This document shows, piece after piece, positions 34,855-39,014 of a stretch of 39,014 bases of DNA (positions are counted from its first letter, which is position 1; the number at the start of each line of letters is the position of its first letter). Source of the stretch: Candidatus Adlerbacteria bacterium (GTDB lineage: Bacteria > Patescibacteriota > Minisyncoccia > Phycocordibacterales > SBAW01). Location of the stretch: NCBI GenBank assembly GCA_903884345.1, contig CAISEE010000016.1, forward strand, positions 1 to 39,014, given 5' to 3'. The position numbers were made by a program, and so were the translations under genes. A model generated the notes under the pieces. That model was given only the letters and a program-made list of their open reading frames with translations. It was not told the origin of the DNA and made no database searches.

Positions 34855-36270
34855 ATGTCCGAATTTTTGCCCACCATTGGTCTCGAGATTCACGCGGAGC
34901 TCAAAACCGCTACCAAGATGTTTTGCGGCTGCGCCAACGATACCGACGAAAAGCGCCCGAACGTCAACATCTGCCCCGTGTGTATGGCGCACCCAGGGAC
35001 GCTGCCCGTCATCAACCGCGAGGCGGTCCACAAGGTGCTCCAGGTCGGCACCGCGCTCGGCGCAACCCTCGCCGATTACACCGAGTTCGATCGCAAGAAC
35101 TACTTCTACCCCGACATCCCGAAGGCGTACCAAATCAGCCAGTACGCGTTCCCGCTGGTGCGCGGTGGGGCACTCAACGGTATCGAGATCACGCGTGTGC
35201 ACCTCGAAGAGGATACGGCACGCTCACAGCACGAGGGAGGCGAGAGTCTCGTCGACTTCAATCGCGCGGGTGTCCCACTCATGGAGTTGGTAACCGAACC
35301 GGTCATCCACACCGCCGAGGACGCCGGCGCCTTCGCCCGAGAATTACAGCTGCTGCTTCGGTATCTCGGGGCCGGTGACGCAAACATGGAGAAAGGCGAG
35401 ATGCGCGTCGAGGCGAATATCTCGGTGAGCCGTGACGGTACGCTCGGCACGAAGGTCGAGGTAAAAAACCTTAACTCGTTCCGCAGCGTCGAGCGCGCGG
35501 TGCGGTACGAAATCGAGCGCCAAATCAACGCGATCACCAGCGGCGAGAAAATCGTCCAAGAGACGCGCGGATGGAATGAGAATACGCAGTCGACATTTTC
35601 ACAACGAAAGAAAGAGTCATCCGAAGATTATCGCTACTTCCCCGATCCGGATCTTCCGAAACTGCTCCTCTCCGAGATTCCCGCATTTGCGAAGTCTCAA
35701 ATCAGCGAGTCGCTCCCGACACTCCCGTGGCAGCGCCGCGCTTCCTACCTCGAGAAAGGAGTGAAGGCAGAGGATGCCGAGATGTTCGTGCGCGACAGGA
35801 TCTCGGGTGACTTCTTTGACGAGGTCGCAAACGGCATGGATCGAGGCACGATACAGCTCGCGTCAAACTACATCACGAGCGACATTGCCGGATACCGCGA
35901 ACGCGGCGAGCTCTCCGACGAGTGGCTGGCCGATTCGGCGAACGCCGCACGATTCGGCAAACTCATGGGGCTGATCGAGAAGGGCGTGCTCTCATCGCGC
36001 GGAGCGAAAGACACACTCAACCTCATGCGCACCTCAACCGACGACCCAGAGTCAATCGCGAGGAAGCACGGCCTCGTGCAGCAAAACGACGCGGCCGCAC
36101 TCAAAGACGCCGTCGAGAAAGTACTCGCTGCACACCCCAGCGTGGTTGCCGATTACCGCGCCGGCAAGGCAAGCGCCCTGCAGTTTCTCATCGGGCAGGG
36201 TATGAAGGAGACGAAAGGGGCAGCCAACCCGGCGACGCTGCGCGAGCAGCTCATGCAAGCCCTCAGGTAA
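34855..36270 (+). CDS. gatB: Aspartyl/glutamyl-tRNA(Asn/Gln) amidotransferase subunit B
   Basis: GatB binds misacylated Glu-tRNA(Gln) or Asp-tRNA(Asn) and, with GatA and GatC, converts it to the amide form. The 471-residue product is full length: IGLEIHAELKTATKMFCGC at the N-terminus, VCMAHPGTLPVINREAV, KNYFYPDIPKAYQISQY, and DFNRAGVPLMELVTEPV. It ends with the YqeY-like tail domain (AHPSVVADYRAGKASALQFL). The cysteines FCGC and CPVC may form the zinc site of the family. gatA and gatC are not in the window. Confidence 0.96.
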   Translation: MSEFLPTIGLEIHAELKTATKMFCGCANDTDEKRPNVNICPVCMAHPGTLPVINREAVHKVLQVGTALGATLADYTEFDRKNYFYPDIPKAYQISQYAFPLVRGGALNGIEITRVHLEEDTARSQHEGGESLVDFNRAGVPLMELVTEPVIHTAEDAGAFARELQLLLRYLGAGDANMEKGEMRVEANISVSRDGTLGTKVEVKNLNSFRSVERAVRYEIERQINAITSGEKIVQETRGWNENTQSTFSQRKKESSEDYRYFPDPDLPKLLLSEIPAFAKSQISESLPTLPWQRRASYLEKGVKAEDAEMFVRDRISGDFFDEVANGMDRGTIQLASNYITSDIAGYRERGELSDEWLADSANAARFGKLMGLIEKGVLSSRGAKDTLNLMRTSTDDPESIARKHGLVQQNDAAALKDAVEKVLAAHPSVVADYRAGKASALQFLIGQGMKETKGAANPATLREQLMQALR

Positions 36271-36304: not shown

Positions 36305-36325
36305 TGCACACCCACAAGGTGTGCA
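36305..36325 (+). promoter_or_regulatory. Perfect inverted repeat, candidate operator
   Basis: TGCACACC (36305-36312) and GGTGTGCA (36318-36325) are exact reverse complements, separated by CACAA. The 21-base site covers the -35 position of the promoter whose TATAAT is at 36341-36346. The gene behind it encodes a helix-turn-helix protein, so autoregulation is plausible. It could instead be a weak terminator for gatB, but no T-run follows. Confidence 0.45.
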
Positions 36326-36340
36326 TTTCACGTTTGGGTA

Positions 36341-36346
36341 TATAAT
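36341..36346 (+). promoter_or_regulatory. Consensus -10, predicted leaderless start
   Basis: A perfect TATAAT ends six bases before ATG 36353, downstream of the inverted repeat at 36305-36325. Confidence 0.6.
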
Positions 36347-36352
36347 TATCGC

Positions 36353-37030
36353 ATGGATGAGCTAGAAATATCGGGTAAGCGATATATATCGTCACGTCGT
36401 GCCGCGAAAGAGAATCGCTACCATGTCGACTACATTGGGCAGTTGATTCGCGGCGGTAAAGTGCTCGGCACAAAGGTTGGTCGTGCGTGGTACGTCAGTG
36501 TCGACTCGCTCGAGGCGTACCTCAACGGCGAACGGGAAGCGTTGAACTCAAGCGCATCGACGTCTGCGCATGCGGATCCTTTGTCGTCGCACGCGTCGAT
36601 CGAAAATGGCGTCGACACATCGTCGATCGAACACGATGCAAATAAAATTCTTGTCGCACGCGACGATCAACCGGCAGAGGCAACGAATGTTGTCCATGGC
36701 GCATCACACGCGACAGTGCGAGATTTCGAGGTGCATGCTGCACCGATGCAAAAGGTCGCGCTAACCTACGTCGCCGACGAGGATTCGTTCTTGCCTAACG
36801 TCTCAAATAGGGCCCTGCATAAGCCAAATTTGGCGCTACCGGATGATTTGGCACATATGCGAGCACAGGCTCGTGCGCCACACCGACCGGCCTCTCGCGC
36901 CTTTGTGCGCGCTCTGGCCACGATTGGTGTCGTTGCCTTCGTAGCGACGTTCGTCGCGTCGTACACGCTCCGCTACGACGTCTCGGTGAGTGCGGGGAGC
37001 GAGGCGACATCAATCACGCTCGCGCGATAG
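36353..37030 (+). CDS. Helix-turn-helix protein with C-terminal membrane helix
   Basis: The 225-residue product begins with an excisionase/MerR-like helix-turn-helix (about 9-58: KRYISSRRAAKENRYHVDYI, then GGKVLGTKVGRAWYVSVDSL). A long polar linker of about 125 residues follows, and then one membrane helix near the C-terminus (187-206) with a short tail of 19 residues outside. A DNA-binding domain tethered to the membrane is unusual. The next gene has a related N-terminal domain and a membrane helix, so the two are paralogues in part. The start is ATG 36353; the upstream extension to 36302 would cross the promoter. Confidence 0.75.
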   Translation: MDELEISGKRYISSRRAAKENRYHVDYIGQLIRGGKVLGTKVGRAWYVSVDSLEAYLNGEREALNSSASTSAHADPLSSHASIENGVDTSSIEHDANKILVARDDQPAEATNVVHGASHATVRDFEVHAAPMQKVALTYVADEDSFLPNVSNRALHKPNLALPDDLAHMRAQARAPHRPASRAFVRALATIGVVAFVATFVASYTLRYDVSVSAGSEATSITLAR

Positions 37031-37619
37031 TAGTTTGCTCCGCGTGGCGTTATTTTTAATGCAACATTTGTCGTGCAATGTCTATTTTATGAGATTGCGC
37101 TTCAATCTAGAGTAGTGTCAATACCCAAAAAATCGGAAGTACCATGCGAAATTGAGTTTGTATAGAGTCGCGTCGGAGCGACTGAAATTTGCATATGGTA
37201 AGAAACTGTTGCGTAATAAAATTCATCAGCGATCACATCGGCGTCATTTTTTGACACGGAAATTTACGGTGAGAGGTGAGGACGTTCGCTGCGGCTTGTG
37301 GCGGAGCAGCAGCCACTCCTTTTTCTCGGTGACGATATATCTAGACATGGAGCCACGAAATTGGCAGTCATGGCGCCTGTATGATTTGTGCGGTGCTGGA
37401 TGTGATGAGACGCATTGTGTGCCATGCAATTGATTCGCCAGTGGTTGCTCAAACACCTTGCTGTGTATGCATTTTTGTATATTTTGAGGTCTACCGCAGA
37501 GGCGGCACATATCCACAGAAATACCGCATGTTTTTCGCATATTTCGATCGTTTGTTCCGTACAATGAAGCTAGTTTAGTTTCCCCGAACTAACTGCACAA
37601 ACAAAAGATTTATCGGAGT
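37031..37619 (+). other. 589-base intergenic region with hairpins, no convincing gene
   Basis: This stretch is less GC-rich than its surroundings and has stops in all frames at short intervals. It contains small perfect hairpins: AGATTG/CAATCT at 37092-37108, AGTCGC/GCGACT at 37066-37083 plus 100 (37166-37183), and an inverted repeat TTAGTT/AACTAA at 37575-37592 just before the next gene. A near-consensus DnaA box, ATATCCACA, lies around 37509. It may be a long regulatory leader or a decayed gene. Open frames of about 100 codons on both strands show no family features. Confidence 0.4.
37560..37565 (+). promoter_or_regulatory. Possible -10 of the large surface-protein gene
   Basis: TACAAT matches five of six -10 bases, 54 bases before ATG 37620. 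An inverted repeat, TTAGTT-N6-AACTAA (37575-37592), lies at the expected start of the transcript and could be an operator or a leader hairpin. Confidence 0.35.
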
Positions 37620-39014
37620 ATGGACGCCTCGCAAAAAAATTTTTCAACGAACGATCAGCGCATGCTCACTGCGCGCGACGTTTCTGTGCGATTGCGATGC
37701 GCGCCGGATTACGTCGGCAAGTTGTGTCGCGAAGGGAAGCTTGAGGGCGTACGAATCGACAACGCGTGGTTCGTACCCGAGGCTGCTATTGACACATTCG
37801 AGAAAAATCGCGCTGCGGCTCGCGTGCAGCGCGCGGAAGAACTTGCGCAACTACGCAAGCGCGAAAATCGGGAATTCAAGACTGCGGCAAAAATTCGTCG
37901 CGCCTCGCTGCGCGCTCCGCGCCACTACGCAGCGGTTGTCGTCGGTGTCGTGTTGCTATTTTCATCTGTGCTGTTCGTCGCGAGCGCGAACCAATCATTT
38001 CAGTCGCTCATGCCGCGCACGGTTGCATTTGAAAATATGTTCGAGCAGACGGCGTCGCCGCTCTTTGGAGCGCACGCGCTGGCAATTGCTGCGCCGACAC
38101 AGGGTGCGAATGTATTCTCGGGATTCGCGCGAAGCATCTTGGCTTTTATTTGGGGTAATCACACATCGAACGTCGCAGTGCAAACGGCGCCGAGTAGTGC
38201 CGTGGTTGCAGACGTATCGTCACAAGCGACCCCCGCGGTGGTCGCGCATCCGTCCACGGTCATCGAGCAAAAGACATACCCAGTCATCGAGCGCACTGTC
38301 GAACGAACAGTCGTCGCGCAAAACACTGTTACGAAAGATCTGCTCGACCAGCGATTGAATGCGCTCGAGAACTCGTTGCGCTCGCAAATCGTCGCTGTAA
38401 GCAGTCCGTCGTTCTCGACGCCGACGGGGTATCCGATTGCCGAGACTCTCTCGACCAACTCGATGCTCTCGAACGCAACGCTCTCGAACGCAACGGTGCA
38501 CGGGTTGAGCGGACTCACGGCCGCAGATGTGCCGCATGACATCGTCGCAAGCAACTACCTCCCGCTTGCGGGGGGTTCGATGCTGGGTGACCTAACAGTG
38601 CCCAACCTTACCGTGTCGGGTGACACGTATTTGGCCGGCATCACGGGTGGCGCGCAGTGTCTCCATGTCGATGCGTCGGGTAAGATTTCGGGCGCAGGCG
38701 GAGATTGCACGACGTCGTCGAGCGCCTTCGCCACCTCGACGGTCGACATGTGGCTCGCACAGCGCTCCACGAGCAATCTCGCTGAAGGTGCGAATCTCTA
38801 CTTCACGAATGCGCGCGCGGTTGCGGCCCTCACCGGGCAAAACGTCTCGATCTTCACCAACGATGCGCATTATCTAACGTCACTTGTTGGCGCCGCATCC
38901 TCGACCGTGCTTGCGGACAGCAACACTTTCTCGGGTAACGACGCGTTCACTAATGCACCAATCCTCGGCACCTTGAGCGGCCTTGTGGGCGCCAACAACG
39001 GCGGCCTGTATCAA
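37620..39014 (+). CDS. Large surface protein with N-terminal HTH and membrane helix (runs off the window)
   Basis: The frame is open from ATG 37620 to the window end, 465 codons with no stop. Residues about 15-60 are an excisionase-like helix-turn-helix (MLTARDVSVRLRCAPDYVGK, then AWFVPEAAIDTF), related to the previous gene. A charged coil and one membrane helix follow (103-122, YAAVVVGVVLLFSSVLFVAS). Then comes a long external part: a possible coiled-coil (LLDQRLNALENSLRSQI) and repetitive beta-rich sequence such as MLGDLTVPNLTVSGDTYLAG, CLHVDASGKISGAGGDC and GANLYFTNARAVAALTGQNV. These motifs resemble phage tail-fibre and giant Patescibacteria surface proteins. GGAG lies one base before the ATG. 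Confidence 0.75.
   Translation, partial: MDASQKNFSTNDQRMLTARDVSVRLRCAPDYVGKLCREGKLEGVRIDNAWFVPEAAIDTFEKNRAAARVQRAEELAQLRKRENREFKTAAKIRRASLRAPRHYAAVVVGVVLLFSSVLFVASANQSFQSLMPRTVAFENMFEQTASPLFGAHALAIAAPTQGANVFSGFARSILAFIWGNHTSNVAVQTAPSSAVVADVSSQATPAVVAHPSTVIEQKTYPVIERTVERTVVAQNTVTKDLLDQRLNALENSLRSQIVAVSSPSFSTPTGYPIAETLSTNSMLSNATLSNATVHGLSGLTAADVPHDIVASNYLPLAGGSMLGDLTVPNLTVSGDTYLAGITGGAQCLHVDASGKISGAGGDCTTSSSAFATSTVDMWLAQRSTSNLAEGANLYFTNARAVAALTGQNVSIFTNDAHYLTSLVGAASSTVLADSNTFSGNDAFTNAPILGTLSGLVGANNGGLYQ
38466..38495 (+). repeat. Tandem 15-base repeat inside the surface-protein gene
   Basis: CTCTCGAACGCAACG occurs twice in a row and encodes LSNAT-LSNAT. It is a short in-frame duplication in the stalk region of the surface protein. 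Confidence 0.7.

Follow-up and report, generated by a model that had tools for sequence, protein, structure and literature searches.

Adjacent membrane-anchored proteins with winged helix-turn-helix heads in Candidatus Adlerbacteria, one continuing into a fibre, as candidate regulators of the fibre gene

Two adjacent genes downstream of gatB in a genome of Candidatus Adlerbacteria (Patescibacteria, 887 kb) raise the question of what a domain of DNA-binding type might do at the inner end of a surface fibre. An attached life on other cells is assumed for Patescibacteria, and to our knowledge little is known of how they sense or regulate attachment; the source bacterium is itself tiny and probably host-dependent. 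The window, i.e. the whole 39,014-nt stretch of DNA analyzed, forms the terminal part of contig C16 in this genome, and in the list of open reading frames both genes, termed A and B here, lie on the same strand 3' of gatB. An initial annotation had proposed that the two proteins share one type of helix-turn-helix (HTH) head followed by a membrane helix, that B continues into a fibre, and that this arrangement could report host contact to the chromosome. No literature on this A-B locus was found. The interest of the locus lies in its conservation across many families of the order, in the union of a head of DNA-binding type with a surface fibre in a single chain, and in a defined candidate DNA site. 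Coordinates of all features are collected in Table 1.

The pair was compared across relatives found by sequence, comprising Ca. Adlerbacteria and other Paceibacteria-type Patescibacteria. A first scan of genome contigs with B gave no match. The B protein was matched in 41 of 60 relatives and the gene order gatB-A-B recurs throughout the order, indicating that the observation is more than chance. Across 80 loci, A followed gatB in 55 of the 60 in which gatB was recognised, and B followed A in 44 of the 47 with room for B. The usual gene downstream of B is gapA, and several Adlerbacteria carry the order obgE-gatB-A-B-gapA. Orthologues of A were found in about 30 Adlerbacteria species and A-type proteins also in other families, and the A profile matched 73 of 148 genomes, spread over many families of the order. 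Within its own genome, the A and B loci were the only two matches to the N-terminal part of B. The arrangement thus proved to be conserved more widely than the window alone could show.

Table 1. Positions of genes, protein segments and DNA elements in the window.
Feature	Position	Strand	Basis or remark
gatB	34855..36270	+	constant neighbour upstream of A
Inverted repeat GCACACC/GGTGTGC	36306..36324	.	from the initial annotation; arms 36306-36312 and 36318-36324; not conserved
-10 element (TATATAAT) of A	36339..36346	+	by eye
Gene A (ATG to stop, 225 aa): winged HTH, disordered linker, single membrane helix, ~20 aa outside	36353..37030	+	ORF, orthologues, AF2
A residues 1-71, BldC/Xis-like winged HTH; invariant D26, Q30, R33, K41, R44	36353..36565	+	AF2, alignment, Foldseek
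A residues 137-148 (LTYVADEDSFLP), conserved short linker motif	36761..36796	+	alignment; shuffled-linker test
A membrane helix, residues 182-205, with its positive flank facing the HTH	36896..36967	+	AF2, basic-residue counts
TATCCACAG, DnaA-box-like, ~100 nt before gene B	37510..37518	+	conserved core
-10 element TACAAT of B promoter	37560..37565	+	aligned in relatives
31-bp half-palindrome CGAACTnnCT-N9-AAAGnnnTnTCG, candidate operator	37585..37615	.	conserved between B promoter and start codon
Gene B (from ATG; 465 aa visible, open at contig end): winged HTH, long juxtamembrane helix, membrane helix, fibre	37620..39014	+	ORF, homologues, AF2
B winged HTH, residues about 14-60; D30/K34/R37 of recognition helix kept, wing tip 45-48 not	37659..37799	+	AF2, alignment, Foldseek
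B long helix, residues 54-97, invariant R71, L75, R79	37779..37910	+	alignment, AF2
B membrane helix, residues 101-123	37920..37988	+	AF2, basic-residue counts
Start of exported fibre part of B	37989..39014	+	ORF, homologues

Structure prediction with AF2, using alignments of the window proteins with related proteins, yielded a winged HTH with both wing and recognition helix in A and in B. In the model of B residues 1-150, the head (pLDDT of 94-98) consists of a strand (residues 14-17), a helix (18-25), the recognition helix (29-38) and the wing (44-53), leading into a single long helix and then the membrane helix. Pfam HTH_17 scored below its gathering cut-off of 27 bits in the two window heads (18.6 and 23.6 bits) and above it, at 30-50 bits, in several homologues; a PDB sequence search with the A or B profile returned no match. 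In Foldseek comparisons a BldC-DNA complex ranked first for B (probability 1.00 and target TM-score of 0.72-0.83 against BldC-DNA complexes) and phage Xis ranked first for A, with further matches to TraN, RdfS and RacA. E-values exceeded 0.001 because the domain is small, and the case is carried by the probabilities and target-normalised TM-scores. Basic residues were concentrated on the HTH side of the membrane helix (3.0 versus 0.8 on the other side in A, 2.3 versus 1.0 in B), and in keeping with the positive-inside rule both proteins are predicted to be N-inside with a cytoplasmic head. Together with the complete homologues of B, these results bear out the architecture read from the window alone, namely two winged-HTH heads of one type, each with a membrane helix, and a single B polypeptide running from head to fibre.

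Both heads have the BldC/MerR-like winged-HTH fold (AF2, Foldseek), and the recognition-helix residues are in the same register as in Streptomyces BldC (PDB 6AMA and 6AMK). BldC, however, is a 68-residue soluble protein with Lys26 and Arg30, whereas A has D26 and Q30, B has D30 and K34, and both are membrane proteins. The fold is likewise shared with the Xis/RDF excisionases (Pukovnik Xis 4J2N, RdfS), from which A and B differ in being membrane-anchored and encoded at a conserved chromosomal locus beside gatB, with no recombination role suggested. In a tree of 126 heads, one clade (support 0.98) held 48 of 50 B heads and none of 71 A heads, which by sequence marks the two as an old paralogous pair rather than a recent duplication. 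Two tandem heads were present in A at about 15 loci of other families.

If these heads bind DNA, where might they do so? The initial annotation had offered the inverted repeat at 36305-36325 as a binding site. The repeat is present, yet it is not conserved; relatives carry different hairpins at this place, several with T-runs, and it is probably the terminator of gatB or a remnant of one. The region upstream of B offers a better candidate: CGAA(C/A)T...TCG, 30-31 bp in length, was found there in 22 of 23 Adlerbacteria loci. Pairwise identity between species is 0.71 in this element versus 0.28-0.30 in its flanks, it is self-symmetric or pseudo-palindromic (p 0.0017 by column permutation), and it lies at varying distances from the start codon. 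In 37 genomes, zero-mismatch copies occurred upstream of B only, at about one per genome, while weaker matches were about as many as with a reversed-pattern control. An RNA element in the B leader was rejected, as folding of the element and leader gave nothing beyond shuffles (z 0.73), the only Rfam match was a chance one, and spacing to the ATG varies. Furthermore, in other families a related half-site, CGAnnnnnCT, lies on or flanking the -10 element of B and not downstream of it, a position more in line with a DNA site than with an RNA leader. Tested across families, regions upstream of B reached p<0.05 in 15 of 26 cases (combined 6e-13) versus 6 of 26 upstream of A (2e-5), a control that is itself raised, the site set having been picked by its -10 and right half.

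Two other features of the intergenic DNA were considered. The core of the DnaA-like box, TATCCACA, recurs in 22 of 23 Adlerbacteria loci and also occurs in some of the other families; a replication origin upstream of B was ruled out in one genome (G024), where the A-B locus lies about 140 kb from both the skew minimum and dnaA. Upstream of A, the -10 element sits 6 nt before the ATG, a layout that by eye recurs in many relatives and suggests a leaderless mRNA; a promoter scan at A found no full sigma-70 match. In some relatives the copies upstream of A are palindromic around the -10.

The explanation to which we assign a probability of roughly 0.5 is that A and B are paired membrane-tethered one-component regulators with BldC/MerR-like heads that control the fibre gene. 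Transmembrane transcription regulators (TTRs) are a known and widespread class in which single-pass forms are commonest, and the text of their survey makes no mention of Patescibacteria (PMC10269533). Like CadC and ToxR, A and B combine a membrane helix and a domain of DNA-binding type (HTH_17, AF2, Foldseek) in one chain, with the domain predicted to lie inside; unlike them, they carry a BldC/MerR-like head, B has a giant fibre outside, and the two proteins come as a pair. In the proposed mechanism, the A head would be held on a long flexible cytoplasmic tether and the B head on a stiff helix that leads through the membrane to the exported fibre, making B fibre and regulator in one chain. We infer that one or both heads would bind the 31-bp half-palindrome, occupying it as an operator and setting B expression in one direction or the other, and that the fibre or envelope, depending on its state (assembly, maturation and perhaps host-cell contact), would alter the pairing of the tethered heads on DNA. 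The binder of the element could instead be a factor unrelated to A or B. The earlier sensor reading is plausible, now with a specific candidate site upstream of B. The bolder version, in which the giant fibre is its own membrane-tethered transcription factor and conveys its outside state to its own promoter through one chain with A as partner, is a tentative and somewhat doubtful proposal.

The contact residues bear on which of the heads would read DNA. BldC contacts DNA through Lys26, Arg30, Lys33 and His46 (PMC5859096). Aligned by eye in the same register, with no gaps through the recognition helix, the corresponding positions in A are D26, Q30, R33 and R44, all invariant in 28 species, of which D26 and Q30 are not basic, unlike their BldC counterparts; A is invariant across these species at 26, 27, 29, 30, 31, 33, 41-44, 46 and 47. 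B keeps D30, Y31, K/R34, L35 and R37, whereas the wing tip of Adlerbacteria B has lost its basic residues and is variable. The outcomes that the initial annotation had named as refuting its reading, namely heads lacking a wing or recognition helix or homologues without conserved basic contact residues, were not observed: the contact set is invariant in A, albeit with D/Q at the base-contact positions, and B retains its recognition helix. The pattern fits a division of labour in which A binds the B operator and the Adlerbacteria B head, no longer reading DNA, binds the A head or dimerises, such that the fibre is regulated without being a transcription factor itself. Conservation of the recognition-helix face of B along with the R71/L75/R79 helix, as in a protein interface, would agree with this, and BldC heads are known to pair head to tail (PMC5859096). 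We nonetheless consider it unlikely: the residue matching BldC Arg30 is K/R in all 22 aligned B species, and in other families B mostly has Arg there and retains a GR or GK wing, a basic wing being present also in the giant B of L137, L146 and L159. A further point against it, and also against the paired-regulator reading, is the persistence of A without B in one Adlerbacteria genome (L087, 10001-11728), where gapA lies directly behind A and B has been lost from that place, suggesting that A there has another role or is a remnant.

Less likely again is the alternative raised in the initial annotation, that the fold has been reused as a cytoplasmic anchor, with the heads fixing fibre and partner to a cytoplasmic structure and regulating no genes. 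RodZ has the same HTH-membrane helix-outside order as A and B. Its HTH is of a different family from the A and B heads (Pfam HTH_17), in which no RodZ-type HTH was recognised by Pfam or among the PDB matches listed; the best structural matches are DNA-binding proteins. The linker of A gives the anchor one argument, diverging almost freely between species apart from a motif with the consensus YxxDDxPLxP, matched in 29 of 56 A linkers versus a mean of 4.3 in shuffled linkers and represented in the window by a divergent form. Such a motif points to a cytoplasmic protein partner, and the long rigid helix of B and the wing decay in Adlerbacteria would allow anchoring for B in that group. Set against this, few positions in A are as conserved as those for DNA contact, and a conserved DNA element specific to B exists. 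Very improbable is an architectural role like that of RacA, in which the heads would fasten the chromosome to the membrane without promoter control. The structural matches do include proteins that act on DNA architecture (RacA, Xis and RdfS), but the conserved element is found at the B promoter only, about once in each genome, and the G024 locus is far from skew minimum and dnaA.

As regards the fibre that A and B would control as paired regulators, complete B proteins in Adlerbacteria and the sister genus span 784-3,118 aa, most of them exceeding 1,700 aa. The window copy stops at the contig end and is presumed to be of giant length from these relatives and from another contig of its genome, C4. 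The end of C4 lies inside an ORF that encodes the end of an S74-like domain together with a surface Ig-like domain and is located just before gapA. A segment near-identical to that on C4 is found at the end of contig C3, and the C16-C4 join therefore rests on gene order rather than sequence overlap. In L233 (G000:C3), a second S74-like fibre C-terminus, which has a near-identical segment in common with that of C4, lies near an smc-like gene; in L048 such a gene is likewise close to a fibre, one with an HTH of its own. Peptidase_S74 scored above threshold in L041, L157 and L044, the last a complete B homologue with this domain and a surface Ig-like domain at its end; it was below threshold in the C4 fragment (19.3 versus 22 bits) and absent from L033, L035 and L048. 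Several B homologues share the S74 domain of Peptidase_S74 fibres (endosialidase chaperone) in their C-terminal part, although not every giant homologue scores for S74, and B differs from such fibres in being chromosomal and membrane-anchored with a winged HTH at its head.

Fusion of head and fibre is the common state of B, the exceptions being six complete short second ORFs (126-299 aa), at several of which a separate secreted fibre or surface protein comes next. Short B proteins were observed in L122, L127, L143, L151, L148 and L160, and in several the outer end is a conserved FSDEV...Y.F..VPV stretch, with genes for secreted surface proteins next. A split layout was observed in L038 (8717-13289), where a short HTH-membrane B is accompanied by an 89-aa HTH-only ORF that directly precedes a separate fibre of 2217 aa with a signal peptide.
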